Origin: Sulfurovum sp. XGS-02
Lineage (GTDB): Bacteria > Campylobacterota > Campylobacteria > Campylobacterales > Sulfurovaceae
Length of the DNA stretch: 64,000 nt
Reading direction: 5' to 3'
NCBI RefSeq assembly: GCF_023213175.1
Contig: NZ_CP093312.1
Span: 1,426,001 to 1,490,000, forward strand
Each line of letters opens with the position of its first letter. Position 1 is the stretch's first letter. The position numbers and the translations under genes are program-made. This document shows, in pieces, positions 76-17,168 of this stretch. The notes beneath the pieces were generated by a model. That model did no database searches, was not told the DNA's origin, and saw only the letters and a program-made list of their open reading frames with translations.

Positions 76-1311
76 CTAAGGTCGATCAGTTAAGAGTTTT
101 TGATATATTTTTAAAAGTTCATGGTAATGTTTGTTTTCGTTAAAATGTTCCTCTGCAAAATTTCGTGCATTTTCTCCAAGTGACCTATACGCATCATTTG
201 AAATACTTTGAGCTTTTTGCACTGCACCCGTTAAATCATCTAAATCTCCACTATCAAAGAGATAACCGTTAAATCCCTCCTTTATCAATTCAGGAATACC
301 TCCTATTCTTGCTCCTATCACCGGTTTCCCAAGAGCAAAACCTTCGATGACCGTCATGGGATTATTTTCGTACCATTCAGATGGCACAAATAGGAATTTT
401 GACCTTTTAACAACATCAAACAACGCATCGCCATTCAAAAAACCGACAAACTCGACATTTGACATGTTATGCTTCGCAATATACTGTTTGGCCTCTTCTT
501 CAACTTCCCCGGTACCAACTATCTTTAAATGTACATGAGGAAATTTTCTCCATACATTGAGAAGTGTCATGACCCCTTTTTCACGAGACAATCTACCAAA
601 ATACAAATAGTAATCTTCATGTGAGAAATGAGGAGAATACTTGTCAAGATCAATAAAATTATAAACATGTTCGCTTTTGGATTTCATAGATGGTTTATAT
701 TGGATATGTTTATCGAGGATAAACCGGCTCACCATAATAAATCTATCTATATACTTTTCATAGGAGAAAAACTGATCTCTTACAAAACATTCCATTGCTG
801 CAATTGAACTGTAGACCAGGCTATGCTTTGTACATTTTCCAATAATACAACTGAGGTAGTTCCCCTCAGCACATTTTTCACAGATCTTGCCTTCACTGTC
901 TCGCATCACATTGGCCGGGCATAGCATTCTGTAGTCATGAACAGACATGACAGTGGGAATATTGTATTTAGCCAAAACAGGTAGAATCGATGATGTTATG
1001 TGACCGTAAAAAATATGTAGATGTGCTATATCCGGTTTTTCATTTTTGATAAGCAATTCCAAATTATCACGTGCTTCTTTATTGTATAGAAATTGTGCTG
1101 CCAATTTAATTTTATGTAAAGTACCTGTATTTTCATAATTGAAAGGCTGTATAAAATACTTATCACTGTAATGCGCCTCAGACATTTCATCTTTGACACT
1201 GAAAAATAGAACATTATGACCATTTTTTTCCAATAGTTTGGAGGTCTCAAAATATACACGGTCCGAACCACCTCTTACATGGTGATAATTGTTAATTTGT
1301 AAAATTTTCAT
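76..1311 (-). CDS. Glycosyltransferase family 4
   Basis: Retaining GT-B glycosyltransferase that probably adds one sugar to a lipid-linked repeat unit at the inner face of the membrane. The N-terminus shows the GT4 glycine loop (VRGGSD, about residue 13). A Cys-rich stretch with six cysteines (about residues 130-160) is seen in a subset of O-antigen GT4 enzymes. The C-terminal domain has the E-x7-E nucleotide-sugar motif in EWYENNPMTVIE, followed by GKPVIG. I chose the ATG at 1311 (411 aa) because GGAAGGGAAG lies just upstream; an in-frame start six codons earlier is less likely. It is the last gene of the minus-strand polysaccharide run here. Family is clear; the sugar donor and acceptor cannot be told. 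Confidence 0.9.
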   Translation of the reverse strand: MKILQINNYHHVRGGSDRVYFETSKLLEKNGHNVLFFSVKDEMSEAHYSDKYFIQPFNYENTGTLHKIKLAAQFLYNKEARDNLELLIKNEKPDIAHLHIFYGHITSSILPVLAKYNIPTVMSVHDYRMLCPANVMRDSEGKICEKCAEGNYLSCIIGKCTKHSLVYSSIAAMECFVRDQFFSYEKYIDRFIMVSRFILDKHIQYKPSMKSKSEHVYNFIDLDKYSPHFSHEDYYLYFGRLSREKGVMTLLNVWRKFPHVHLKIVGTGEVEEEAKQYIAKHNMSNVEFVGFLNGDALFDVVKRSKFLFVPSEWYENNPMTVIEGFALGKPVIGARIGGIPELIKEGFNGYLFDSGDLDDLTGAVQKAQSISNDAYRSLGENARNFAEEHFNENKHYHELLKIYQKLLTDRP

Positions 1312-1350
1312 TTTCTTCCCTTCCACCACTATAAAACCTTATGTACAATC

Positions 1351-2688
1351 TCACATTAACACTTTTTTATTTGTTTGAAGTGCTTTCATCACACATATTA
1401 ATCCTGCAAAAAGATATAAATATATATGGTTATCCGGAGGTTGTACCAAAAACATAGAACCTATGATAAGTAATATTCCTATCAGGGTAGGCAAAAGATA
1501 ATAGTGTCTATGAGATCTTTTATAGAGGTTCAGAGCTGTCTTTATTAAAAAATAATAAAATAACAAATAGAGTAAAGTCCCAATGAGACCAACTTCCAGG
1601 ATGATCCAGAAATAATAATTATCTATGGCATAAAAATCAAATTTGGTTACGAAATTTCTCTCTTTTCCAAACCCAAAAAAAGGTGCCTCTTGTATTTTAT
1701 CATACACAGCCACATATTGAAGTGCCCTGGAAGTTGAACTTCTTACTTCTTCCCCTCCACTAAGCAGGTCAAAACGGCCATGAAAATTCATGATTAACAT
1801 ATGGATATAATTGAATAGAAAATAGAAAACCACACCAATCACAATAACATTTAACATGTGTGCAATCAATCTATACTCTTTACCCCTTCTATAGATGTTT
1901 AGGACCAAATAGATATAAACCAGGATCATTGACATTACAATAGCCGATCGTGACCCAGTTGAATAGATTGCGAATATGAACAATAGTAGATAGATCATTT
2001 TCAACAGTAAAGAGTAATTGTTTTTATAGATATAGGCTACTACCATAGGAAATAAGATAACAAGATATTGGCCTAGGACAATGGAATTAAGAAAACTTGT
2101 CCTTACACGATACATTCCGCTTCTTGTTAAACCCATGGTTGCATCCGTAAGCAACATAATTTTATCTGAAGCCAAGGTCCCATATATGGGATACTTTAAT
2201 ATAAACTCAAGCAAGACAAATATCAAAACTATGGTATAGCCATAAAAAATGATCTTGACCAATTGGTCAATACTCTCTTTTGTATGGATCAAAAGGATTG
2301 TCAATATTATAATAAACACGGAAGAGAGAAATTCTATAAGGATCATAATATATTGTGATACTTCTCTACTGTTCATGGTTAGAGAAAACAGTTTTACAAC
2401 AAAAAATAGTAGCAATATGTTTATCATGGCTCTATTTTGCTGATATACCGGTGACATCCGTTGAGCAATATGTTTCAAGTTTTGAGTCAGAGAAAGGGTC
2501 AATGAGATAAATAAAATGATCAATAAAATTCTTTTTAATGAGATAGCAAAACCTTCACCTCCTATACCGAATCCTAAATATGGCGGCATGAATGGTACGA
2601 GAAAAATAAAAATGAGATATATGAACTGAAGTCGATAGGAAATAATGAAAAAGTATACACTTAGAACTAATGTTAAAACCGATCCCAA
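1351..2688 (-). CDS. O-antigen ligase/polymerase-like membrane protein (Wzy/WaaL family)
   Basis: A 445-residue, strongly hydrophobic protein with roughly ten to twelve membrane segments, matching the O-antigen ligase/polymerase superfamily. The typical late motif is present near residues 365-380 (IDNYYFWIILEVGLIG), after a predicted periplasmic loop. Within a cluster holding a Wzx flippase and glycosyltransferases, a Wzy-type polymerase of repeat units is the simplest role, but a WaaL ligase or a polymerase of another glycan cannot be excluded from sequence alone. The start is a TTG at 2688 with AAGGGATAAG just upstream. That ribosome-binding site overlaps the end of the preceding GT2 gene, so translation is probably coupled. 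Confidence 0.82.
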   Translation of the reverse strand: MGSVLTLVLSVYFFIISYRLQFIYLIFIFLVPFMPPYLGFGIGGEGFAISLKRILLIILFISLTLSLTQNLKHIAQRMSPVYQQNRAMINILLLFFVVKLFSLTMNSREVSQYIMILIEFLSSVFIIILTILLIHTKESIDQLVKIIFYGYTIVLIFVLLEFILKYPIYGTLASDKIMLLTDATMGLTRSGMYRVRTSFLNSIVLGQYLVILFPMVVAYIYKNNYSLLLKMIYLLLFIFAIYSTGSRSAIVMSMILVYIYLVLNIYRRGKEYRLIAHMLNVIVIGVVFYFLFNYIHMLIMNFHGRFDLLSGGEEVRSSTSRALQYVAVYDKIQEAPFFGFGKERNFVTKFDFYAIDNYYFWIILEVGLIGTLLYLLFYYFLIKTALNLYKRSHRHYYLLPTLIGILLIIGSMFLVQPPDNHIYLYLFAGLICVMKALQTNKKVLM

Positions 2689-2691
2689 TAC

Positions 2692-3729
2692 TTATCCCTT
2701 AAAAGCTATATATTTATTTAGCTTTCTGTATAGTTTTGACATACCCTTTAAAAGCGTAGGAAAACTTCTTAAATAGTAACTTAGTAAAAGTTTTTTTGAT
2801 CTTTTCGGAGTTAGTGAATAACTATCTTTAACGGTCTGCTTAAATTTTATAATATCATCACTTATCAAGTAAGAGAGTGCCATTTCAAGATACAATTCTG
2901 ATTTGATCTGTAGAATTTCAGCATGAAATTGTTGATTGAAATAGCTATCCATATCATTATAGCTTTTCAGTATTCTTTGAAATTCTTTTTCTTTATTTTC
3001 AATATTCAGCATTGAAACAGACCAGGATCCAGCAGCATTTCTTCTGTAGACAGACATCGGTCTATCAATATAAAGTGCACCACCTTTTATAGATCCGAAG
3101 ATCTGCAGAAAATAATCTCCAAAAGGTGCTTCCTCATACCATTGAGGTAAATTTAAAACAGCTTCTTTTTCAAAGATCAAAGATGCTGTCGGACAAAATC
3201 CTCCACCTCCTAATACAATCTCACTTGTAGAAAATAGTCTATTACCATTGGCCTGTTTTGTGGTAATACTGTCCTTTTTACTACCATCTTCCCATTGATC
3301 AATCGCTGAATGAAAACTCATCTGACAATCTTCAACTTTTCTCATTTCATCAAGTTGTATCTGCAACTTATGAGGATCTATCCAATAGTCATCTCCTTCA
3401 CATATTGCAATATACTTTCCAGATGCTCTATTGAAAATTGTCGTTCCTGGCATGATACCTTTTGACCACTGATTCTCTTTTTGCAAAATCAGTTTTATGA
3501 TCGTTGGATATTCTTTTACATACTTCTCTAATATCTCTACCGTCTTATCGATTGAACAATCATCATGCACAATAACCTCAAATGGGAAATCAGTCTCTTG
3601 CATCAATATACCGTCTAATGCATCTGAGATATAACTTTCATGATTATAGGTGATACATGCCACGGTCATAAGAGGAGGTTCCGTATAGCTCCAGTTCTTC
3701 ATGATCTCTGTTTCATTTTTTTCTATCAT
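2692..3729 (-). CDS. Glycosyltransferase family 2
   Basis: A 345-residue inverting GT-A glycosyltransferase, likely cytoplasmic and acting on a lipid-linked glycan. The N-terminal nucleotide-binding segment begins at about residue 20 (VACITYNHESYI), with the first acidic motif IVHDDCSIDKT and a second acidic motif EGDDYWIDPHKL near residues 112-125 where a divalent metal would bind. The C-terminal third has no clear membrane segment. The ATG overlaps the TAA stop of rfbB by one base (TAATG), and its own stop lies three bases before the next gene, so these genes are one transcription unit. Sugar specificity is unknown. Confidence 0.9.
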   Translation of the reverse strand: MIEKNETEIMKNWSYTEPPLMTVACITYNHESYISDALDGILMQETDFPFEVIVHDDCSIDKTVEILEKYVKEYPTIIKLILQKENQWSKGIMPGTTIFNRASGKYIAICEGDDYWIDPHKLQIQLDEMRKVEDCQMSFHSAIDQWEDGSKKDSITTKQANGNRLFSTSEIVLGGGGFCPTASLIFEKEAVLNLPQWYEEAPFGDYFLQIFGSIKGGALYIDRPMSVYRRNAAGSWSVSMLNIENKEKEFQRILKSYNDMDSYFNQQFHAEILQIKSELYLEMALSYLISDDIIKFKQTVKDSYSLTPKRSKKLLLSYYLRSFPTLLKGMSKLYRKLNKYIAFKG

Positions 3730-4766
3730 TATTTTACTTTTTCTATTTTTTCAGATGAAATATTATATTTTTCTAAATACCACTTTACGGTCTTAATAAT
3801 TCCAGATTCAAAATGCTCATCAGCTCTCCATCCAAGTTGGGTTTCAATTTTAGTAGCATCTATAGCATAACGCCTATCATGCCCTGCCCTATCCTCAACA
3901 TAAGTAATCTGCTCTTTATAACTTTCTTCTTTGGGAAGCAGACTATCGAGTATTTCACATATCTTATCAGCAATGTAGTTGTTGTTACGCTCATTACGCC
4001 CACCGATGTTGTAGACTTCACCATTTTTTCCGGTATGGTACACAAGATCGATCCCTTTACAATGGTCCAGGACATAGAGCCAGTCACGGATGTTTTTACC
4101 ATCCCCGTAAATGGGAATAGTATCCCCTTGCAGTGCTTTACGTATAATGGTCGGTATGAGTTTTTCATCATGCTGCTTCGGACCATAGTTATTTGAACAG
4201 TTTGTGATAACCGTATCCATACCATACGTATGATGATAACTTCTCACAACCATATCACTTCCTGCTTTTGAAGCTGAATAAGGTGAATTGGGCGCATAAG
4301 GGGTCTCTTCCGTAAAAAGTCCTTCTTCACCCAATGTACCGTAGACTTCATCGGTGGATATATGGTGAAATCGGCACCCTTCATACCCTGGCGTATGGAC
4401 AAAAGGTTTCTCCATCCAATACTTGTACGCTACATCAATTAGCGTAAAAGTACCGTTCACATTGGTTTCTATAAATAGACCAGGGTTTTTGATAGAATTG
4501 TCAACATGAGATTCAGCAGCAAAATGGATCACACCCCTTATATCATGTTCGGAAAAAAGATATTCCAGTAATTCCCTATTGCAAATATCTCCTTTCACAA
4601 AACTGTAGCGTTCACTCTTTTCTATCTCTTTTAAATTCTCTACATCACCGGCATAAGTAAGAAGATCAAGATTAATCACATGATACTCCGGGTACTTTTC
4701 TAAAAAATAAGGTACAAAGTTACTTCCAATAAATCCCGCACAGCCAGTCACTAAAATTGATTTCAC
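3729..4766 (-). CDS. rfbB: dTDP-glucose 4,6-dehydratase
   Basis: Makes dTDP-4-keto-6-deoxy-D-glucose from dTDP-glucose, the branch point for rhamnose and many amino-deoxy sugars. It is an extended short-chain dehydrogenase of normal length (345 aa). It has the NAD-binding GCAGFIGSNF near the N-terminus, the STDEVYGTLG segment near residue 132, and the YxxxK catalytic pair in YSASKAGSD near residue 165. The start is a GTG at 4766 with AAGGATAG upstream. rfbC lies 86 bases upstream in the same direction, but rfbA is 11.5 kb away, so the dTDP genes do not form a compact rml operon. The product probably feeds the aminotransferases of this cluster. Confidence 0.96.
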   Translation of the reverse strand: MKSILVTGCAGFIGSNFVPYFLEKYPEYHVINLDLLTYAGDVENLKEIEKSERYSFVKGDICNRELLEYLFSEHDIRGVIHFAAESHVDNSIKNPGLFIETNVNGTFTLIDVAYKYWMEKPFVHTPGYEGCRFHHISTDEVYGTLGEEGLFTEETPYAPNSPYSASKAGSDMVVRSYHHTYGMDTVITNCSNNYGPKQHDEKLIPTIIRKALQGDTIPIYGDGKNIRDWLYVLDHCKGIDLVYHTGKNGEVYNIGGRNERNNNYIADKICEILDSLLPKEESYKEQITYVEDRAGHDRRYAIDATKIETQLGWRADEHFESGIIKTVKWYLEKYNISSEKIEKVK

Positions 4767-4852: not shown

Positions 4853-5434
4853 TTATCCATAAAGATCCTCATCATAATCAAAAAGTTTATCTGTGTCTAA
4901 AAGTAAGGGTTGCTTCTTATCCTTGTCGGAAAGTAGTAAATGATCAGGATTTATCTGCCAGTCTATATTGAGTGTCGGATCATCAAAAGCAATCCCTCTA
5001 TCAAATTCTCTAGCGTAATAGTTATCCACTTTATAGGAAAGTATTGCTTCCTCAGAAAGCACTACAAATCCGTGCGCAAATCCTCGTGGTATGAAGAGCA
5101 TACGTTTATTCTCCTCTGACAGTTCAACTGCCACATATTTCCCAAATGTAGGAGATCCCTTACGAATATCTACAGCAATATCAAGAATTTTACCCTTAAT
5201 AGCACGTGCTAACTTACTCTGGGCAAACGGGGGAAGTTGAAAGTGTAGTCCTCGAAGTACACCATAGGATGATTTAGATTCATTGTCTTGGAGAAAATCA
5301 ATATTAAACCCCAATGCCTCTTGCAGCTTGTCACTCCGATACGTTTCCATGAAATAACCTCTGTCATCAGCAAAAATATCCGGTTCGATCATAATAACAT
5401 CAGGTATCTTGGTTTTGATGAACTTCATATTCAC
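4853..5434 (-). CDS. rfbC: dTDP-4-dehydrorhamnose 3,5-epimerase
   Basis: Double epimerase converting dTDP-4-keto-6-deoxy-glucose to the L-lyxo isomer. The cupin fold is recognisable from GVLRGLHFQLPP (catalytic His near residue 64), the Lys/Asp segment KGKILDIAVDIRKGSP, PRGFAHGFVVLSEEA and the active-site Tyr region YKVDNYYAREFDRG. Length (193 aa) is slightly above the usual 180-190. Two starts are possible, GTG at 5434 and ATG at 5428; AAAGGGG upstream does not decide between them. The gene follows the flippase gene by one base. No rmlD reductase was found in the window, so the L-keto sugar either goes to a reductase encoded elsewhere or to another enzyme here. Confidence 0.95.
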   Translation of the reverse strand: MNMKFIKTKIPDVIMIEPDIFADDRGYFMETYRSDKLQEALGFNIDFLQDNESKSSYGVLRGLHFQLPPFAQSKLARAIKGKILDIAVDIRKGSPTFGKYVAVELSEENKRMLFIPRGFAHGFVVLSEEAILSYKVDNYYAREFDRGIAFDDPTLNIDWQINPDHLLLSDKDKKQPLLLDTDKLFDYDEDLYG

Positions 5435-5435
5435 T

Positions 5436-6890
5436 CTACCCCTTTCGTCGTTTTAAAATCTGACTTAACTGTGCTTCAAAACTCCCATAAGAACTCGTTT
5501 TCACTAGTTTATTGATTATAAAATAGAGAACGGTAAACATTGTACTTTTCATGACTAACATTAGTATACCATATATTTCAATTTCTTCAGTGGATAATAT
5601 CACTAGCCACACTATTATGAATGAAATTAGCATCTGTACAATAATAGGTTTGAGAAACACAAAAAAAGCTAATTTGATTTCACGTGATGCAAACAAAATA
5701 TTTAAAGAAACACTCAAAACTGCCACGATAACCAAACCATAAAGATACCCTTCTATCCCCCATAAAAACCCAACATAAAAGTTAATACTCTGCAATATTT
5801 TTTTATAGATCTCCAGGCGAAGAAAAGCTTTGGAATTTCCACGGCTCATTAAGATATCAACAAGTAATGCACTTATAGGATATGCAAAACCACTCAATAG
5901 AAGTATTTTAAAGTATGCAACGGAGGGCAGCCACTTTTCCGTGAATAGAAAAACAATTAATTCTTCAGATATGACGTACATTACGCCCAACAGAAAGAAA
6001 ACAACAAAACTAATAATTCTCAATGTGTTGATGACGATATGTTGAAATCTTGGTAAATCATTTTGTACTTTACTTAAGACAGGAAAAAGTACTGCCATAA
6101 TACTCCCGGACGAGAGCTGAGTGATCATTAAATCTAATCTTTTGGCCTGGTCAAAAAAACCTAGAACTGCTGGAGTAAATAACTTTCCTATAATAAGAAC
6201 ATCCAGTTTACTATATACCACTTCAAGTATAGTGGATAAAAAAATACGAAAACCAAATCCCCATAATTGCATCAATGCCTTAAAAGAAAACAATAAGGAA
6301 GGCACCCATTTGGATGCACTCCAGACAAATAGATTATAATATACGCCTCTTGACAGTGCCTGGATCACAAGACTCCATACTCCAGCACCGTAAAGTGCGA
6401 ACCCGATACTGGTTATACCGCTTAAGAGGGCTGCAGCTACATCTGCTTTTGCCAAAGCAGCGTAATTCAGTTGTTTACGTAATATATTGGTCTGTACGCT
6501 GCTAAATGCATTGATCACAAATAACAGTGCTGTGACTTGTGTAACAGGAACAAGTTCTTCATTGTTATAAAAATCACTTATCCAGGAAGCAGAAAAAATT
6601 GTAATTACTGTCAGTATTACACCAATAAAGACATTAAAATAAAATACAGAAGAATAGTGAACCAGTAATAGTCTGCGCCGCTGTATCAAAGCACTACCAA
6701 GTCCTACATCGGTAAAAACAAGCGCGATCATTACAATGACCATGATCATCGCTATCAAACCAAAATCAGATGGCTCGAGTATCCTTGCCAAAATGATTGT
6801 TACAATAAAAGTCGTTCCGTGTCTGGCTATTTTTCCAAAAAAATCCCAGATCAGTGCGGTTAATCCCATTGACTTTAAGTTATCAGGCAT
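5436..6890 (-). CDS. Polysaccharide flippase (Wzx-like, MATE/MVF superfamily)
   Basis: A 484-residue integral membrane protein with about twelve to fourteen hydrophobic helices. The N-terminal segment, with LARILEPSDFGLIAM and then DVGLGSALIQRR at about residues 60-72, is characteristic of polysaccharide biosynthesis exporters. The probable role is to flip undecaprenyl-diphosphate-linked repeat units to the periplasm for polymerisation by the Wzy-like protein encoded downstream. The ATG at 6890 has only a weak purine-rich ribosome site (AGAAAGAAG). The substrate cannot be predicted. Confidence 0.88.
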   Translation of the reverse strand: MPDNLKSMGLTALIWDFFGKIARHGTTFIVTIILARILEPSDFGLIAMIMVIVMIALVFTDVGLGSALIQRRRLLLVHYSSVFYFNVFIGVILTVITIFSASWISDFYNNEELVPVTQVTALLFVINAFSSVQTNILRKQLNYAALAKADVAAALLSGITSIGFALYGAGVWSLVIQALSRGVYYNLFVWSASKWVPSLLFSFKALMQLWGFGFRIFLSTILEVVYSKLDVLIIGKLFTPAVLGFFDQAKRLDLMITQLSSGSIMAVLFPVLSKVQNDLPRFQHIVINTLRIISFVVFFLLGVMYVISEELIVFLFTEKWLPSVAYFKILLLSGFAYPISALLVDILMSRGNSKAFLRLEIYKKILQSINFYVGFLWGIEGYLYGLVIVAVLSVSLNILFASREIKLAFFVFLKPIIVQMLISFIIVWLVILSTEEIEIYGILMLVMKSTMFTVLYFIINKLVKTSSYGSFEAQLSQILKRRKG

Positions 6891-7000: not shown

Positions 7001-7690
7001 CTATATTAATTCATAGCTGTTCAACATCTCTTCAATCTCTTCTTTAGAGTTAAACATCATAACATCAATAATAGAAAGATTGGGTATAAACTTATGATTA
7101 AACTGTTTATACTCTATATCTCCACTTTTTATAAAATTCAACTTTATCCCTTCTCTCAGAAAGTCTTCTTTATTATATAGTTTCTGCCCACCGATCGAAT
7201 TAATATAATGATCAGCATTTAATCTTTTACAGATATCTATTACTCTATCTTGTCCCTTTAACAAAGTGTCTCCCTGTAGATCACTCAAATAAATCATTTT
7301 TGTATCTATATCTAAATATTGTACAGTTCTCTCAATTGCATAACCCACGTATTTAGCTAAATTCTTTTCACCATGCAACAATATCTCTTCTAACATTGGA
7401 TAAACTTCTTCAAAATATGGTGCTTTTTTGTAAGCATGAAAAATTGATTTCAGTATTTGACGGGCATTTTTTCCGACTTTAACTTCATTGATCAGTGATC
7501 TCATATGAACACTCGACACTTCTAATGTAAACAAATGTCGCCTACCATTGATAAGCATATTGTTTCTGTTGATATACCCTTGTTTTATGTACTGCATACT
7601 GTCTGCAATCACATAGATATCAGATATATTTATTAATTGCCAGAACCCAAGATAAGGGAAAAAGTATGGCTGATTACATCCTATTGTCAT
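7001..7690 (-). CDS. WbqC family protein
   Basis: A 229-residue protein of the WbqC family, found in many O-antigen and flagellin-glycan clusters. The family hallmark is at the N-terminus: IGCNQPYFFPYLGFWQLI, then IYVIADSMQYIKQGYINRNN, and later SIGGQKLYNKEDF. No member has a firmly proven general reaction known to me; involvement in making or acylating amino sugars has been proposed. Here it sits directly after a DegT aminotransferase gene (51 bases), which fits a role in processing an amino-sugar nucleotide. The ATG has AAAGGG upstream. Family call is strong, function is open. Confidence 0.85.
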   Translation of the reverse strand: MTIGCNQPYFFPYLGFWQLINISDIYVIADSMQYIKQGYINRNNMLINGRRHLFTLEVSSVHMRSLINEVKVGKNARQILKSIFHAYKKAPYFEEVYPMLEEILLHGEKNLAKYVGYAIERTVQYLDIDTKMIYLSDLQGDTLLKGQDRVIDICKRLNADHYINSIGGQKLYNKEDFLREGIKLNFIKSGDIEYKQFNHKFIPNLSIIDVMMFNSKEEIEEMLNSYELI

Positions 7691-7741: not shown

Positions 7742-8830
7742 TTAACTATAGTTTTTCGAGCGTATTTCCTTCAATGTTTCTATAATTGTTTCACTCACAA
7801 GGGGTTCTATACCTGAATGCATCGGAACTACCAAAATTCTGCTTGCAATATCTCTCGATTTCACCATGATACTTTGATGTTCAATATAAGGAAGTGTGTC
7901 TAATGAAGGTTTAAAATATTGACGTGCTGCAATCTCTTTTTCAAGTAATGCTTCTCGAACCCTGTTCATCTCATCTTCAGATTTGAATACAACTGGAAAA
8001 TAGGTATAACTTTGCGTGGCATCTTCATTCTTTTTTTGTAACTGAACATACTCTTTTAATTGACGTGTATAGAATTCATGACTTGCTTTACGTTCTTTTT
8101 GTATGATATCCTCTTCCTCAAGCATACATAATCCCATGGCCGCTTCCACTTCATTCATTCTTGCATTGACACCCAGCATAACCACAGAATCAGGACCATC
8201 AATACCACAATTCCTGACAATTTTTGCTTTTTCATACAAAGCATCATCCTTGATAACAATAGCAGCACCTTCAATCGTATGAAAGAGTTTGGTCGCGTGA
8301 AAACTGATAATAGATATATCACCGTAATTTAATATATGTTTATCTTTATACTTCACATCAAAAGCATGAGATGCATCATAAATCACTTTGAGGTTGTGTC
8401 TTCTGGCTATTTTATCGATTACGTCTATTTGACAAGCATTACCAAAGACATGACACGGCGCTATCGCACATGTCTTTTCCGTAATAACACTCTCAATATT
8501 CTTTGGATCAATGTTATAAGAGTTACCATCAATATCTGCAAAAACAGGGATCAGTCCTTCTACAACGATCGCACTGGTTGTAGAAACAAAACTGAAAGGG
8601 GTCGTTACAACTTCCCCCTCAACTTCCAAAAGTCTGTAGGCTAGTTGCAATGCATCTGTCCCATTAGAGATGCAAAGCAGATTTTTTACCCCTAGATATG
8701 CTTCAAGTTTTTTCTCAAGTCTTTGAACCAGAGGCCCATTATTCGTCAAGCATCTACTTTCATAAATACCATCTATATATGCTTTGAATTTTTCTTTGTC
8801 AGGCATATATATTTTCGTTGTGTAAATCAT
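7742..8830 (-). CDS. DegT/DnrJ/EryC1/StrS-type sugar aminotransferase (copy 1)
   Basis: PLP-dependent aminotransferase likely acting on a keto-sugar nucleotide such as the product of RfbB. The PLP lysine is K181 in SFHATKLFHTIEGA; YDASHAF near residue 151 supplies the PLP-ring aspartate, and SNGTDALQLA near residue 55 the phosphate-binding loop. I chose the ATG at 8830 (362 aa) because AGGAAG lies five to seven bases upstream; an in-frame GTG at 8848 is the longer alternative. It is clearly paralogous to the aminotransferase at 10029-11108 (same length, same motif spacing, many identical blocks). The two may act at different ring positions. Confidence 0.92.
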   Translation of the reverse strand: MIYTTKIYMPDKEKFKAYIDGIYESRCLTNNGPLVQRLEKKLEAYLGVKNLLCISNGTDALQLAYRLLEVEGEVVTTPFSFVSTTSAIVVEGLIPVFADIDGNSYNIDPKNIESVITEKTCAIAPCHVFGNACQIDVIDKIARRHNLKVIYDASHAFDVKYKDKHILNYGDISIISFHATKLFHTIEGAAIVIKDDALYEKAKIVRNCGIDGPDSVVMLGVNARMNEVEAAMGLCMLEEEDIIQKERKASHEFYTRQLKEYVQLQKKNEDATQSYTYFPVVFKSEDEMNRVREALLEKEIAARQYFKPSLDTLPYIEHQSIMVKSRDIASRILVVPMHSGIEPLVSETIIETLKEIRSKNYS

Positions 8831-8967
8831 ATAATCTTCCTGCTTCACTTCAACAATATGTAGAGCTGCTCAATCCCACTCATCAGCTTAAAAAGATAGA
8901 TTTTATAATATAGTATAATACTTCCTTTCTTCTATAATTATAAAAAAGAAAAAATTATTCTATTTAC

Positions 8968-9948
8968 TTATTTTGATATCGTTAATATATTTATATCCTT
9001 TATCATCATGATACCTTCCTTATACTCATGGTATTTTTCATAATCAGAAGGCTCTATCTCATCATTTACAAGATCTATGAGTATTTTCGGGAAATCACAA
9101 CCTGCAAGATAAGTGATAGGATAAGCACCGCCAAATCGTGGATTCAACTCTAATATGTATGGCTCGCCCTCTTTTAAGAAAAAATCAACATCAAGTGGAC
9201 CTACATGCCCAAGTCTATTTCCTAGCTTCATTCCCAATGCAGCCATATTTCTATCTTTGATCGCATATCCTTGATCTGTTTCCCCCGATCGCATTTTTAT
9301 CTTCTGTTTGACGATGGTTGTGATCGTTTGTCCATTCAAATCATTTAATATGTCAAAACTATATTCTTTACCTTCTATAAACTCTTGAACGATCATATCT
9401 TCATTATCATAATATTTCAGAAAAAAATCAACTTCATCTCTGTTTCGGGCCAGACTGATCGCATTGCTTCCAAAACCAAATCTTGGTTTTACGATGACAG
9501 GGTAAGAGGGTATCTCTTGTTGGACCACCTCTGCTGATGTCATGGTCCACGGTGTTTGAAACCCTTCACGTCGTAAAAACTTGAAAGCCTCAACTTTATC
9601 AAAACATATGTGATTCACCTGATGAGAAGAGATCACAGGCTTTACCCCTACAACTTCAAATTCTTTTAAATATTTTGATAATATATACGTGTCATAATCA
9701 TAGAAAGAGAGAAGCATATCAATCTTTTCAGTTTTGCAAATCTGTAAAAGTGCATCAATATATTTACGTTCATCTTTTATGCTTGGAACGATATAGCTTT
9801 TGTCACAATGTAAAAACCCGGAAGTGAACTCCGTATTCCTGTCATTTCTGTCAGAGGTACCTATGAGCTTACTATCAGCAGACAGGTGTTTTCTAAAATA
9901 ATCAACGATATACCCTCTTCGTCCAATCGTACAAAACAATATGTTCAA
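8968..9948 (-). CDS. ATP-grasp ligase
   Basis: An ATP-grasp enzyme (about 326 aa) that would join a carboxylate to an amine or similar nucleophile through an acyl-phosphate. Visible features are an N-terminal pre-ATP-grasp segment (ILFCTIGRRGYIVDYF), the ATP-binding strand PVIVKPRFGFGSNAI near residue 145, VQEFIEGKEYSFDIL, and the metal-binding PLDVDFFLKEGEPYILELNPRFGGAYP near residues 245-270. The best start is TTG at 9948, which has AAAGGA six bases upstream; a TTG 11 codons earlier lacks one. It lies between two paralogous aminotransferase genes, so it may add an amino acid or other acid to a new amino sugar. That substrate is inference only. Confidence 0.86.
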   Translation of the reverse strand: MNILFCTIGRRGYIVDYFRKHLSADSKLIGTSDRNDRNTEFTSGFLHCDKSYIVPSIKDERKYIDALLQICKTEKIDMLLSFYDYDTYILSKYLKEFEVVGVKPVISSHQVNHICFDKVEAFKFLRREGFQTPWTMTSAEVVQQEIPSYPVIVKPRFGFGSNAISLARNRDEVDFFLKYYDNEDMIVQEFIEGKEYSFDILNDLNGQTITTIVKQKIKMRSGETDQGYAIKDRNMAALGMKLGNRLGHVGPLDVDFFLKEGEPYILELNPRFGGAYPITYLAGCDFPKILIDLVNDEIEPSDYEKYHEYKEGIMMIKDINILTISK

Positions 9949-10028
9949 AATATATCCTTTCTCATGTACAAAAAAATACAAATACTATGTGAATGACAAT
10001 ACCGTTCCATCTGTACTTAACCACAAAA

Positions 10029-11108
10029 TCATGTACGAATTTTCTTTAATGTTTCCAATATCACTTCACAAGCCTTTACCTCAGCTCCTGAATGTAATGG
10101 TAAAGATAATATCCTACTGGTATAGTCACGTGAAATAGTCATAGGTTTACGCTGTTCAACATAAGGAAGAATATCAAGTGAGGGTGAGAAATATTGACGG
10201 GGTTTAATACCGTTTTCCATCAAAGCATCCATTACCTTATGCATTTCATCTGGTGACCTTAGAAGAATAGGACAATAACTATAGTTGAACGTGGCATCTT
10301 CATTCAGTCTCTGCATTTGAACATGATCCTTCAGCTGCTCTGCATAGTAAAGATAGCTGTCTTTTCTCTCTTTTCTGACTGCTTCTATCTCATCAAGTAC
10401 ACAGAGTCCGGCGGCTGCTTCCAATTCGTTCATTTTTCCGTTAATACCCGGTGTACATCCTTCTCCTGTGATATTCGTTCTTCCGTATTGTCTCATTGCC
10501 TTTGCTTCTTCATACAATGCATCATCTTTAATAATAAGGGCACCACCTTCAATAGAATGGAAGAGTTTTACTGCATTAAAACTAAGCGTTGAAATATCGC
10601 CGTAGTTTAAAACACTTTGACCTTTATAATCGACGCCAAAAGCATGTGCACCATCAAACACTACTTTTAAATTGTTTCTCTTTGCCACTTCCATAATTTC
10701 ATCCACCTGACAGGCATTACCATAGACATGTACGGGGACAATACCTGTGGTTTTATCAGTCATAGAACCTTCGATCTTATCTGGGTCTAAGGTCATATAT
10801 TCACTATGGATATCTGCATATACCGGTGTCAGGCACTTTGAGATAAGTGTATCTGTTGTTGAAACAAAAGTAAACGGTGTCGTGATCACTTCACCTTTTA
10901 ACTTCAGAAGTGTATAGGCCATTTCCAAGGCTATTGAACCATTTGCTACACATACCAGGTTTTTAACCCCCAGATATGCTTCAAGCCTTTTTTCAAACTC
11001 TTGCACTAAGGGTCCGTTATTGGTAACCCATCCTGTTTCATATATCTTGTCAATATATGCATGAAGTTTTTCTTTATTCGGGTACCAAACTTTTGAAATA
11101 GGTATCAT
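10029..11108 (-). CDS. DegT/DnrJ/EryC1/StrS-type sugar aminotransferase (copy 2)
   Basis: A 359-residue PLP-dependent aminotransferase, paralogue of the gene at 7742-8830. The PLP lysine is K181 in SFNAVKLFHSIEGG, with FDGAHAFGVD and ANGSIALEMA as the other cofactor motifs. Blocks such as NNGPLV, EAYLGVKNL and the C-terminal YF-PSLD-LPY-E region are shared with copy 1, pointing to duplication inside the cluster. The ATG at 11108 has a strong AAAAGGGG upstream. It is the first gene of the minus-strand unit that runs leftwards from the 313-base gap. It probably makes an amino sugar nucleotide; ring position and stereochemistry are unknown. Confidence 0.92.
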   Translation of the reverse strand: MIPISKVWYPNKEKLHAYIDKIYETGWVTNNGPLVQEFEKRLEAYLGVKNLVCVANGSIALEMAYTLLKLKGEVITTPFTFVSTTDTLISKCLTPVYADIHSEYMTLDPDKIEGSMTDKTTGIVPVHVYGNACQVDEIMEVAKRNNLKVVFDGAHAFGVDYKGQSVLNYGDISTLSFNAVKLFHSIEGGALIIKDDALYEEAKAMRQYGRTNITGEGCTPGINGKMNELEAAAGLCVLDEIEAVRKERKDSYLYYAEQLKDHVQMQRLNEDATFNYSYCPILLRSPDEMHKVMDALMENGIKPRQYFSPSLDILPYVEQRKPMTISRDYTSRILSLPLHSGAEVKACEVILETLKKIRT

Positions 11109-11421: not shown

Positions 11422-11781
11422 ATGAATATGAAAATGATACTAAAGGCATATTTCCTCATTCTTGGCATGGCACTGCTGGCAAGTGGTTGCAGTACGAAAG
11501 AGTCAAAGACCGATATACTTGTAGAATTGGGAAATGATCCTGAAAAAGTCAAACTTTATAGGGAAGATATGCAAAATCTGGTTAAGGATATCGAACAGAA
11601 TCAACCAAACTACAAACATCTTCCTTTAAAAGAAAAAGCTGATTTTGATTGGTTTTATATTGAGACGTATGCCGTATGGGAAAAACGTGTCACTAAAGAG
11701 CAATTTATCCAAAATGGTCTTCAACGTTATCCTTCATACAAAGAATCACTGGAATATTTGGCAGACCGGCTTACCAAATAA
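11422..11781 (+). CDS. Small lipoprotein of unknown function
   Basis: A 119-residue protein with a lipoprotein signal peptide: a short basic start, a hydrophobic core (residues 9-19) and the lipobox LASGC with Cys23 as the lipidated residue. The mature part is charged and contains EDMQNLVKDIEQ, DFDWFYIETYAVW and repeated Lys/Glu; no domain is recognised. The ATG at 11422 is preceded by AAGGA. The gene is on the plus strand between two minus-strand genes and converges with the ThDP enzyme gene 39 bases downstream. Gene call is good, function unknown. Confidence 0.75.
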   Translation: MNMKMILKAYFLILGMALLASGCSTKESKTDILVELGNDPEKVKLYREDMQNLVKDIEQNQPNYKHLPLKEKADFDWFYIETYAVWEKRVTKEQFIQNGLQRYPSYKESLEYLADRLTK

Positions 11782-11820: not shown

Positions 11821-13590
11821 CTAATAGTCTAATGGTTTGATCACCATCTGTTTTTCCAACTCTTCTCTATCCAAGAAGGGTGCCATATCTTCCATAGGTC
11901 TGTTCCCTGCCAGTCTGGGTTCAACCAGATGTTTGGAGTCACTTAACCGTATATCTATGAGTTCACTTGCATCATTTTGTAAACTTTGCTCGATGAGTTT
12001 CTCTATTTCATCCATATTTGAGACTTCATGACTTTTGATACCATACGCTTCTGCTATATTTTTGAAATGGGGCACACTGTAATCCTTTTGAGTCCCAATA
12101 TAATTTTCATTTAAATATTCTGTTTGCATTTGTCTCACCATGCCCAAAAAAGCATTGTTCATGATAAATATTTTAATTGGCAGTTGTCTTCTACTAAGTA
12201 CTTCAAGTTCTTGAATATTCATCTGAAAACCACCATCTCCTACAATAGCGATTGCGCGTGTCCCACTTCCCAGTGTAGCTCCGATAGCAGTAGGCAATGC
12301 ACACCCCATAGCTCCCAGACCTCCTGAAAAAAGTAATCTTTGGTCTTTTTTGACTCTAAAAGATTGGGCAGCCCACATTTGATGCAATCCTACATCTACA
12401 CACACCATATCCCCTTCTTTTGAATGTTGGGAAATAAGAGATATGATCTTATTTGGCATTTTTTCTTTTTTATCGATCGTATACAATGAAGAGTATTGCT
12501 CTTTATAGCTTAAAACCTTATTCTGCCAACTCTCTATATTGGTTTGGAGTGCTTTTGTATTTAGCTTATCAAGAAAACTTTTTACATCAGCATTGAGAGC
12601 GTAATCCACTTTTATCTTTCTGTCTAGTTCATGTCTATCTATATCGACCTGAACGATTTTCGCTTCTCTGGCAAACGTAGATGTTTGTCTTCCTGTCTGA
12701 CGAGCATCCAACCTCGATCCCAGTATGATCAAAAGGTCACTGTTGGCCAAAGTCAGACTTGCACATCTATTTCCGTATGCACCGATGAATCCAAGGTTAT
12801 ATTTATAACTCTCCTTGACAAGATCTTTTCCCATTAACGAGTATACGACCGGAATATTTGTAGCGCCCAATAATGCATTTAACTCTGATTCGACATCTGC
12901 GATTCTGGCACCGCCGCCAACCAATATCACTGGTCTTGTTGAAGCATTGATCAGTGTAGCAATATTTTCGATCACAGCATCATCTATATCTGTATGGATT
13001 GAAGATGCTTGATAGGCTTCACTCTCATAAAATGATCTTTCCTTATCCGGATCAAACTCTTTGTATTGCAGGTCAATAGGAATATCAATAAGCACCGGTC
13101 CTTTCCTACCCTCTTCAGATATATATGCAGCCTTTTCCAATTCATATCTTAGATCATGTATATCATGTATGAGTACAGCATATTTTGTGATCGGTTTCAC
13201 AACACTGACAATATCTGTCTCTTGAAACCCTATCTGTCGTACGGGGGCATTGTTCTCACACCCTGATGCATTCTTGCACTCATAGGTATTGACTTGCCCG
13301 GTAATGAACAATGCAGGTACAGAATCATAAAAACAGCTGGCTATAGGTGTAATCAAATTTGTTGCACCCGGCCCACTGGTTGCTGTTGCTACACCTATTT
13401 TACCTGTAGCTCTGGCATACCCTTCTGCAGCAAAACCGGCACCTTGTTCATGTATGGTATTCACCATTTCGATCTCTTTATGGTTATCTATAGAGTCCAT
13501 GATATGGGCATTATTCCCACCTATATATCCAAAAACCTTATCTATGTTATGCTTCACTAAAAACTCAATGATATAATCTGATACTTTCAT
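11821..13590 (-). CDS. Acetolactate-synthase-like ThDP-dependent enzyme
   Basis: A ThDP enzyme of the acetohydroxyacid synthase type (589 aa). The activating glutamate is E48 in TIHEQGAGFAAEGYARATGK. The middle FAD/DHS-like domain has PVILVGGGARI, and the C-terminal ThDP motif GDGGFQMNIQELE is followed about 25 residues later by MNNAFLG. I chose the ATG at 13590 with AAGGAAAAG upstream; a longer reading to 13647 would overlap the previous gene. It lies inside a sugar cluster, with no regulatory ilvH gene next to it. It may therefore transfer a two-carbon unit from pyruvate to a keto-sugar, as YerE does in branched-sugar pathways. A plain biosynthetic IlvB is the alternative. Confidence 0.88.
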   Translation of the reverse strand: MKVSDYIIEFLVKHNIDKVFGYIGGNNAHIMDSIDNHKEIEMVNTIHEQGAGFAAEGYARATGKIGVATATSGPGATNLITPIASCFYDSVPALFITGQVNTYECKNASGCENNAPVRQIGFQETDIVSVVKPITKYAVLIHDIHDLRYELEKAAYISEEGRKGPVLIDIPIDLQYKEFDPDKERSFYESEAYQASSIHTDIDDAVIENIATLINASTRPVILVGGGARIADVESELNALLGATNIPVVYSLMGKDLVKESYKYNLGFIGAYGNRCASLTLANSDLLIILGSRLDARQTGRQTSTFAREAKIVQVDIDRHELDRKIKVDYALNADVKSFLDKLNTKALQTNIESWQNKVLSYKEQYSSLYTIDKKEKMPNKIISLISQHSKEGDMVCVDVGLHQMWAAQSFRVKKDQRLLFSGGLGAMGCALPTAIGATLGSGTRAIAIVGDGGFQMNIQELEVLSRRQLPIKIFIMNNAFLGMVRQMQTEYLNENYIGTQKDYSVPHFKNIAEAYGIKSHEVSNMDEIEKLIEQSLQNDASELIDIRLSDSKHLVEPRLAGNRPMEDMAPFLDREELEKQMVIKPLDY

Positions 13591-13624
13591 CACTTTTCCT
13601 TTTTCACTAAAATCATATGCTCTC

Positions 13625-14743
13625 TCAATGCCTATAGATGGAATCAAGTATTTCTTTTAAATCAATATATTTATATTGATCATTCTGTTGTTTCAAATGT
13701 GCTTCTATATTTTCTTTTGTTACTTGGACCCCAAAATCTTGATGTTCAACCGAATCTTCAGGATACAATAATTTACTTATGACAAGTTCAGTATGTTCTT
13801 TTCTCAGGTGAGAAGAGTCCCAATAATTATCTTTATTGGTCGTGATAGAATTCACACCTGTAAAATCAGTGAAATCGGTGATTTCCGCCAATTCTCTTTT
13901 GAAGGTTTCAAATGCCTGTTTCAATCCTGCTTCCTTGAGAGCGTAAAAATGTTCAGCATACATTGGAGGAATATAAACATAAATCTTGATGTCATTTTTA
14001 TGACAATAATCTACAATTTTTTTAAACATACGCATATACTCATGTGAATATTCATACTTGGCATAGATACCACGGTTTTTATCAAAATAATATTTTATAT
14101 GATCATTAATACTGTTTTGTAATTTAAACGTTCCATTCTTGAGCTTCTGTTTATAATTCGGAAAATGTCTCATACCGCTTTCTGAATAATAAACATGATA
14201 TCTTGGATGCAAAGCATTATTGTTCACTATTGTACGTATAGATTTTATCAATGTTTGTATATTGAAGTATATATCATAGGTATAAAAGGAATCAAAAGAT
14301 TGAATCTCCTCTTTCAACTGCACATAATCATCATTGAATTTTAAATTTTTATTAAATGTCATAAAGTCTATACCATAGATGATATTCTTGATATTGTTAA
14401 ATTTAATCGCATACAGAAATGAGTCCCATTGAAGAGGCATTGCAGAGCCTGGAAGACTCATTGTAAAGGTTTTACCTCCTAAATATCTATCTGCTACATG
14501 TGTGTCCATCAATCCAATACGTGATGTACCTAACATAAGATTGTCCCATCCGCCTTTTTTTAATAGCGGCATTTTATATTTGATCGTAAAAAGGGTATTG
14601 TCTTCTTTTACAATGTTCATATTTTTGATCAATATTTTTTTATTAAACCCCAGTGGATCAATGACATAATTAATCAATCCTACAGCAAAAGAGATAGTTA
14701 GAATCATGATCATCCAAATTTTGATCCATTTTTGAGCAGACAT
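13625..14743 (-). CDS. SGNH/AlgJ-like partner of the MBOAT acyltransferase
   Basis: A 372-residue protein with one N-terminal membrane anchor (about residues 8-27) and a long periplasmic part. The segment LMLGTSRIGLMDTHVAD near residue 70 resembles the block I motif of SGNH/GDSL enzymes, with Ser in the nucleophile position. YWDSSHLRKEHTE near residue 308 supplies the D-x-x-H pair. Such proteins are usually encoded next to an MBOAT gene, as here (11 bases apart), and together they move acyl groups onto exported glycans. Sequence similarity to AlgJ/DltD is weak, so the family call rests on motifs and context. Confidence 0.72.
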   Translation of the reverse strand: MSAQKWIKIWMIMILTISFAVGLINYVIDPLGFNKKILIKNMNIVKEDNTLFTIKYKMPLLKKGGWDNLMLGTSRIGLMDTHVADRYLGGKTFTMSLPGSAMPLQWDSFLYAIKFNNIKNIIYGIDFMTFNKNLKFNDDYVQLKEEIQSFDSFYTYDIYFNIQTLIKSIRTIVNNNALHPRYHVYYSESGMRHFPNYKQKLKNGTFKLQNSINDHIKYYFDKNRGIYAKYEYSHEYMRMFKKIVDYCHKNDIKIYVYIPPMYAEHFYALKEAGLKQAFETFKRELAEITDFTDFTGVNSITTNKDNYWDSSHLRKEHTELVISKLLYPEDSVEHQDFGVQVTKENIEAHLKQQNDQYKYIDLKEILDSIYRH

Positions 14744-16298: not shown

Positions 16299-17168
16299 TT
16301 ATTTCACACCAGCCATATCGATCATATACTGACCATATTCTGTCTTCTTTAGAGGTTGTGCCAATTCTATAAGCTGTTCATCGGTGATCCAGCCTTTATA
16401 ATGTGCGATCTCTTCAATACACGCTACCTTATACCCTTGTCTTTTTTCAATCGTACGGATATATTGCCCTGCATCTGCCAAGCTTTCATGTGTACCTGTA
16501 TCAAGCCAGGCAAATCCACGTCCTAATAATTCAACCCTTAGATCACCCCGTTCCAAGTAAGCCTGATTGATCGATGTGATCTCAAGTTCTCCCCGTTCAG
16601 ACGGCTTGATCGTTTTTGCTATTTCTACTACATCATTATCATAAAAATAGAGTCCAGTCACGGCAAATCTGCTCTTTGGATGTTCCGGTTTCTCTTCAAT
16701 GGAAAGCACTTCATGATTTTCATCAAATTCAACCACACCAAAGCGTTCAGGATCTTTGACCTGATAACCAAAGATCGTTGCACCTTTTTCCTGTTGTGCT
16801 GCATGTTCTACCCTTGGCGTCAGGCCGGATCCAAAAAAAACATTATCCCCCAATATAAGACAAACACTATCATTACCGATAAAATCTTCCCCAATGATAA
16901 ACGCTTCTGCCAAGCCGTTTGGAGAATTTTGTGTCGCATAAGAGAATGTCATCCCAAGAGGTGAACCATCCCCCAAAAGTTCTTCAAACCTATGAATATC
17001 CTGTGGTGTTGAAATGATCAATATCTCTTTAATACCGGCTAACATCAAAACAGATAAGGGATAATAGATCATAGGTTTGTCATAGACAGGGAGGAGTTGT
17101 TTTGAAGTGACTTTTGTGATAGGGTGCAGTCTGGTTCCGCTGCCACCTGCAAGAATGATACCTTTCAT
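16299..17168 (-). CDS. rfbA: Glucose-1-phosphate thymidylyltransferase
   Basis: Makes dTDP-glucose from dTTP and glucose-1-phosphate, supplying RfbB. The N-terminus shows the complete nucleotide-binding signature ([17 protein letters not shown]), followed by [30 protein letters not shown] carries the metal-binding aspartate near residue 108; and [12 protein letters not shown] lies near residue 220. Length (289 aa) is standard. The ATG has AAAGGGTATTT upstream. It is the outermost gene of the left polysaccharide locus, separated from rfbB and rfbC by the acylation and amino-sugar genes. Confidence 0.97.

Follow-up and report, generated by a model that had tools for sequence, protein, structure and literature searches.

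Two tandem predicted aminotransferase-ligase gene pairs in a Sulfurovum glycan cluster: a candidate pathway to N-acylated amino sugars and a possible ligase role for WbqC

Two probable aminotransferase-ligase modules

The 64,000-nucleotide stretch of DNA analysed here (the window) lies in the single-contig, 2.19-Mb genome of Sulfurovum sp. XGS-02 and contains two DegT-type sugar aminotransferase genes, AT2 and AT1, with an ATP-grasp gene between them and a WbqC gene behind AT1. The order of transcription on the minus strand is AT2, ATP-grasp, AT1, WbqC, Wzx, RmlC, RmlB, GT2, Wzy and GT4. Because each of the two aminotransferases directly precedes its own predicted ligase, we favour two tandem aminotransferase-ligase modules, which probably yield N-acylated, and probably aminoacylated, 4-amino sugars. 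Established here are the gene content and layout, the conserved motifs, the pattern of genes directly downstream of related aminotransferases (the slot) and, for one of the WbqC models, a match in fold. All four core genes were found as open frames in a run of dTDP-sugar, Wzx and Wzy glycan genes, with Pfam matches far over the cut-offs (Table 1), in agreement with a preliminary description of two DegT aminotransferases around an ATP-grasp gene with WbqC next. That description had also named RfbB (RmlB) as the source of the keto sugar, and RmlB and RmlC indeed lie in the same gene run, with RmlA nearby. The diamino sugar that it considered fits less well, as a layout of aminotransferase-ligase, aminotransferase-ligase suits two modules or successive acylation better.

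In the proposed pathway RmlA and RmlB would supply dTDP-4-keto-6-deoxyglucose, and AT1 and AT2 would place an amine on the keto sugar, most likely at C4, giving a Qui4N-like sugar or its epimer. The ATP-grasp protein, acting after AT2, would form an amide on the amine via an acyl phosphate, and WbqC, acting after AT1, would form one by a BshC-like route; the acid joined by WbqC is most likely an amino acid, glycine or alanine for example. Assembly of the product into a polysaccharide would fall to Wzx, Wzy and the glycosyltransferases. We infer the substrates and the amide step, and likewise whether the two ligases serve two sugars or act sequentially on one. A wider proposal, which we make tentatively, is that WbqC proteins form a widespread family of compact ligases resembling BshC, which couple amino acids to the amino group of nucleotide amino sugars and are functionally interchangeable with ATP-grasp ligases; with both kinds present here, each with its own aminotransferase, two differently aminoacylated sugars would enter one polysaccharide.

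Genes downstream of related aminotransferases

A search of 397 Campylobacteria genomes with AT1 found 38 places, spread over 37 genomes, at E ≤ 1e-70, and the next gene was read for the 22 best of them (E ≤ 1.5e-116), which include AT1 and AT2 of the window. The surveyed genomes are mutually related and the events not independent, and the slot figures are plain counts of places. The slot held WbqC in 9 of the 22 places (window AT1, G393, G187, G311, G332, G127, G266, G390, G131) and an ATP-grasp gene in five (window AT2, G199, G252, G261 and G282, the last scoring just 22.1 bits, below the cut-off of 23.2). The remainder were hexapeptide transferases in four places (G318, G368, G058, G360), an N-formyltransferase in one (G235), Wzy in two (G346 by Pfam, G297 only via equal length and layout) and an unrelated cytochrome gene, 315 bases away, in one (G003). 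Ten of the 16 weaker places were examined and had no labelled WbqC or ATP-grasp gene directly downstream, several of the next genes being unlabelled; in one weaker place (G033) WbqC lies directly upstream of the aminotransferase. Within the aminotransferase clade of eight sequences that includes AT1, the next gene was WbqC in four (window, L008, L011, L080), ATP-grasp in three (L009, L010, L074) and neither in one (L007, first copy). The preliminary description had looked to gene neighbourhoods for a conserved association; the two pairs recur as just counted, and the four-gene set AT2/ATP-grasp/AT1/WbqC was found nowhere else among the loci inspected, the nearest being L074 and E. coli operons.

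The ATP-grasp proteins at the slot form groups that are only about 20-27% identical to one another in the longer alignments, which suggests that different ligases were repeatedly recruited to the same job. On a Burkholderia glumae plasmid the slot is taken by a ketoacyl-ACP synthase and an acyl carrier protein. Among nine weaker relatives of AT1 (L204-L212), the two genes before the aminotransferase carry RmlA and radical-SAM-like labels in six, and a GT10 fucosyltransferase comes next in two; in these loci an aminotransferase of this type may serve another purpose.

The ATP-grasp protein

Besides its PF02655 domain (Table 1), the ATP-grasp protein has a PylC-like N domain (68 bits, cut-off 27). 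Its open reading frame (ORF) reaches TTG 9981, and TTG 9948, which gives 326 residues, was preferred as the start because a GAAAGGA element precedes it and the E. coli relative begins at that residue. The segments KPRFG and ELNPR are conserved, and we take their lysine to bind ATP and their E-x-N to bind metal. It shares 37% identity with the ATP-grasp protein encoded on an E. coli IncR plasmid. Along about 320 residues it gave a 156-bit match to PRK12767 (structure 2pn1, named only as carbamoylphosphate synthase large subunit), and it fell short of the cut-off in each of the five listed PRK12767 models. Joining an acid to the newly made amine is its likeliest role, because in relatives the same slot is also occupied by hexapeptide (acetyl-type) transferases, by an N-formyltransferase or by WbqC. 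This context supports the activity that had been suggested in the preliminary description, as a prediction. A search for viral relatives of the gene gave 316 pattern-matching stretches, none of which was confirmed.

WbqC as a possible ligase

The WbqC protein has 229 residues. Its AlphaFold model, made from 45 sequences (pLDDT 94.9), found its best match in VIA-align with BshC 4wbd (Z 14.7, root-mean-square deviation (rmsd) 3.3, 222 of 229 residues), followed by GluRS and TyrRS at Z 8.0. Foldseek likewise placed BshC 4wbd first (E 0.006, probability 0.94), with no match below E 0.001. By its gene context and this modelled fold, WbqC may itself be a ligase. The longest predicted helix has 16 residues, and the coiled-coil dimerisation domain of BshC is absent. 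A strict WbqC motif was too narrow (11 of 62 matched), and among the variants in a looser listing are QP..P[WY].G and QSNYIPWKG.

WbqC was found above the cut-off in 80 of the 397 Campylobacteria genomes, on 47 of 72,556 plasmid records, other phyla included, in 52 phage-contig loci and in E. coli O-antigen clusters. One paper (PMC5532660) calls WbqC functionally uncharacterised. No paper pairing WbqC with ATP-grasp, or Qui4N with ATP-grasp, was found in the literature searched, and no mention of WbqC or ATP-grasp in the available portions of PMC3726653, PMC5560731, PMC4869667, PMC6124807 and PMC4873512.

One group of phage contigs (among L112-L158) has WbqC, then a protein of about 320 residues, then a GNAT gene; in L117 the former protein has a weak GH130/GH32 match. 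Of the 46 labelled viral WbqC places, 13 are followed by a GNAT within three genes. Phage ORFs of about 215 residues were considered as possible short versions of DegT: one of them has a PF01041 match of 39 bits, the set reached 25% probability in hhalign, and the first row of the set may be a glycosyltransferase. Plasmids of Rhizobium and Tateyamaria (L232, L233) share the order DegT, WbqC, glycosylase, hypothetical protein, GNAT, methyltransferase, glycosyltransferase. A 4.08-Mb Proteus mirabilis record (L162, NZ_OL790811.1), chromosome-like in size though in the plasmid collection, has DegT, GT2 and WbqC consecutively.

The two aminotransferases

AT1 and AT2 share 55% identity across 361 aligned residues. 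The AT1 frame opens at GTG 8848 with a likely start at ATG 8830, and from their likely starts AT1 and AT2 have 362 and 359 residues, close to but not quite the equal length first ascribed to them; the equal lysine spacing held, with Lys181, which we take to be the lysine that binds pyridoxal phosphate, in an S-F-x-A-x-K-L-F-H context in both. AT1 relatives in campylobacterial loci are 69-80% identical. In the tree AT1 falls inside the clade of eight campylobacterial sequences (support 97/99) and AT2 outside it, as a neighbour with weaker support (92/71). A recent tandem duplication is unsupported since AT2 lies outside the AT1 clade; judged by this tree, the two are old relatives.

The best named model for both was DesI, with 235.6 and 225.4 bits against an NCBIfam equivalog cut-off of 650, and because this cut-off was missed, no named enzyme (DesI, VioA, WecE) can be assigned to either. 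The closest solved relative of AT2 is 2po3, titled 4-dehydrase. For the 3,4-ketoisomerase FdtA/QdtA, PF05523 gave no matches across the genome. Amination of the RmlB product is therefore likely at C4 rather than C3, given this result and the sub-cut-off DesI model. Use of C3 in relatives is possible, because the DegT-WbqC pair on the Tateyamaria plasmid lies near FdtA/QdtA.

Alternative explanations

Several observations weigh against our proposal, and some of them speak for other explanations. In the locus L074 the genes run aminotransferase, ATP-grasp, WbqC, GNAT, thiamine pyrophosphate (TPP) enzyme, ATP-grasp, and because both kinds of ligase stand behind the same aminotransferase, the exchange of WbqC and ATP-grasp is not strict. 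No GNAT was found among the 20 window ORFs scanned, and the O121-type pathway has one after WbqC. Both points are in line with successive acylation of one sugar, in which WbqC would add the amino acid and the ATP-grasp protein would cap its amine with a second acid, replacing the O121 GNAT, the two aminotransferases being redundant or serving the sugar and the acyl chain. A GNAT also lies within three genes after WbqC in E. coli O121, in O123/O186 and on two alphaproteobacterial plasmids. Of the alternatives this one survives best, yet we regard it as unlikely: two different aminotransferases, each with its own predicted ligase directly behind, favour two modules, and L009, L010 and L194 have an aminotransferase followed by ATP-grasp with no WbqC among the neighbours shown.

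The second alternative concerns WbqC itself, which could have the class I synthetase/nucleotidyltransferase fold without being a ligase (an adenylyl- or cytidylyltransferase, for instance) and be brought near aminotransferases only by mixing of glycan genes. A second WbqC model, made from 25 divergent phage-contig sequences (pLDDT 93.8), gave GluRS, PPAT and TyrRS at Z ≤ 7.9, with BshC absent among the rows; such values are middling by the tool's grading and may reflect merely a common arrangement. Foldseek placed unrelated metal-binding proteins on top for this model, and 4wbd was not among its rows. Class I synthetase-like rows thus appear with both models and the specific BshC match with one. 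For the window model, the alignment that Foldseek itself made with BshC was poor (TM 0.45, rmsd 17.9). A Pfam scan of 45 WbqC members at E ≤ 10 listed 18 families, with PF10079, presumably the BshC sequence family, absent among them, its filters dropping most weak matches; and a profile search of PDB sequences listed 15 matches, kinesin light chains and one TPR-like chain, with BshC absent among them.

Gene neighbourhoods add to these points. They were surveyed in 60 stretches with 62 campylobacterial WbqC places, many from few genera and not independent. A labelled aminotransferase adjoins WbqC in only 21 of the 62 and lies within four genes in 36, leaving 41 without an adjoining one; only five have a labelled GNAT among the next three genes downstream. 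Other neighbours in the tested examples were methyltransferases, radical-SAM proteins and glycosyltransferases. A non-ligase WbqC nevertheless seems doubtful to us, and a little less likely than successive acylation: the BshC match of Z 14.7 spans the entire window protein and stands far above the other rows, and WbqC is present in the O121 cluster, whose sugar bears an amino acid.

Two further observations weigh against the two-module reading. ATP-grasp genes of the window type are rare, occurring in five of the 397 Campylobacteria genomes; the other four are 29-34% identical, and a DegT gene lies no more than 1.5 kb from two of them (L003, L004), a point in favour, and not from the other two. 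An E. coli locus with vioA and an O116-type flippase (L231) has a glycosyltransferase next and no acyl enzyme; another with vioA (L230) has an acyltransferase gene next.

It seems improbable that the ATP-grasp protein amidates the carboxyl of a uronic acid with an amino acid, independently of the aminotransferase product: amino-acid amides of uronic acids do occur in O-antigens and UGD-like genes lie near several AT1 relatives, but no UDP-sugar dehydrogenase was found among the 20 window ORFs scanned, and the slot in relatives also holds hexapeptide transferases and an N-formyltransferase, which usually act on amines.

Other genes of the locus

The coordinates of the core genes and their neighbours are collected in Table 1. 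The protein-family matches are far above chance, and the gene order is given as observed.

Table 1. Features of the glycan locus, with positions counted from the first nucleotide of the window
Feature	Position	Strand	Evidence and remarks
AT2, DegT-type sugar aminotransferase	10029-11108	-	PF01041 280 bits (cut-off 19.8); Lys181; first gene of module A
ATP-grasp, predicted carboxylate-amine ligase	8968-9948	-	PF02655 90 bits (cut-off 23.2); second gene of module A
AT1, DegT-type sugar aminotransferase	7742-8830	-	PF01041 295 bits (cut-off 19.8); Lys181; first gene of module B
WbqC, predicted BshC-like aminoacyl:amino-sugar ligase	7001-7690	-	PF08889 220.4 bits (cut-off 21.3); second gene of module B
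Wzx-type flippase	5436-6890	-	PF13440 270 bits
RmlC, dTDP-4-keto-6-deoxyglucose 3,5-epimerase	4853-5434	-	TIGR01221 243 bits (cut-off 155.75)
RmlB, dTDP-glucose 4,6-dehydratase, 4-keto sugar supplier	3729-4766	-	TIGR01181 461.8 bits (cut-off 365.1)
GT2 glycosyltransferase	2692-3729	-	PF00535
Wzy_C polymerase/ligase	1351-2688	-	PF04932 56.5 bits
GT4 glycosyltransferase	76-1329	-	PF00534
Acetolactate-synthase-like TPP enzyme	11821-13647	-	TIGR00118 471.6 bits (under cut-off 538.35)
RmlA-like nucleotidyltransferase for dTDP-glucose	16299-17168	-	PF00483 256.7 bits

A small plus-strand ORF at 11422-11781, whose start resembles a lipoprotein signal, divides two glycan gene groups. Beyond it the second group consists of the TPP enzyme, a gene with a weak, sub-cut-off DUF1574 match, an MBOAT acyltransferase and RmlA. 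The TPP enzyme is probably a specialised copy, another copy in the genome scoring 793.8 bits. A relative of it lies within four genes of AT1 in six of the seven other inspected loci with an AT1 at least 69% identical (L008, L009, L010, L011, L074, L080; the exception is L007), and it may take part in acyl-acid synthesis or act on the keto sugar. Past GT4, just beyond the window edge (contig 1425071-1425904), lies an RmlD-like reductase gene. Of the dTDP-L-rhamnose set, RmlB and RmlC score above their cut-offs, RmlA is matched by PF00483, and the RmlD-like gene is below its cut-off (169 against 224 bits); with the last, the operon may also make a 6-deoxy-L-sugar.

Comparison with known systems

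Sugars bearing amino acids are known in bacterial O-antigens, and no enzyme assigned to joining the amino acid to the sugar was found in the literature searched. If WbqC is a BshC-like ligase, a large family of unknown function gains a testable role and BshC gains a small relative. According to a review (PMC3210612), 4-amino-4,6-dideoxyglucose bears formyl, acetyl, N-acetylglycyl and N-[(R)-3-hydroxybutyryl]-L-alanyl groups; the review cites the E. coli O121 polysaccharide for N-acetylglycyl and places the hydroxybutyryl-alanyl group on the O-antigen sugar of Hafnia alvei 1205. These acyl groups are consistent with the slot enzymes found.

The E. coli O121 cluster shares with the window a dTDP-glucose dehydratase and pyrophosphorylase, a DegT aminotransferase (40% identical to AT1) directly followed by WbqC, a flippase and a polymerase. 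It differs in having one DegT gene in the stretch read, a GNAT behind WbqC and no annotated ATP-grasp. The simplest reading of O121 is that WbqC would add glycine, which the GNAT would then acetylate. The E. coli O123/O186 cluster also has DegT directly followed by WbqC, but behind WbqC come a 324-residue protein without a Pfam match, a GNAT and MaoC, and no ATP-grasp is annotated. Labelled relatives of the 324-residue protein (L160:10771-11745) occur in L071 and L091, there too behind WbqC, at a distance of one or two genes; a relation of the O123 protein to a 321-residue phage protein was unsupported (hhalign probability 0.3%).

An operon on the E. coli IncR plasmid (L013, NZ_LR890610.1) has RmlB, RmlA, flippase, DegT and ATP-grasp genes in common with the window, whereas it has a GNAT and a D-cysteine-desulfhydrase-family enzyme between DegT and ATP-grasp and no annotated WbqC. 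In the aminotransferase tree its DegT is sister to those of E. coli O121 and O123/O186. The operon sits between transposase genes, and its DegT-to-ATP-grasp stretch occurs at 99% identity or more in 4 of 5426 E. coli genomes, always on plasmids. The preliminary description had not recognised the combination from a characterised pathway. This holds for the exact four-gene set, seen only here among the loci inspected, but not for its parts: aminotransferase, WbqC and GNAT stand together in E. coli O121, and aminotransferase, GNAT and ATP-grasp on the E. coli plasmid.

The VioA/VioB pathway to dTDP-4-acetamido-4,6-dideoxyglucose (E. coli O39, O49 and O116) comprises RmlA, RmlB, a C4 aminotransferase and an N-acyl enzyme, as stated in PMC4732683, and differs from the window in that an acetyltransferase replaces the ligase. 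BshC may resemble the window WbqC in fold, judged by one model over 222 residues, and, according to PMC5372718, couples cysteine to glucosaminyl-malate in bacillithiol synthesis. It is unlike WbqC in its 540 residues, its extra coiled-coil domain and a substrate that is not a nucleotide sugar, and no sequence relation was detected. A 2015 review (PMC4360819) describes the coiled-coil dimerisation domain of BshC and states that, up to then, no in vitro demonstration of BshC activity existed. The combination found here looks like a variation on a known pathway type, in which the predicted acyl-ligase reading extends from the ATP-grasp protein to WbqC.

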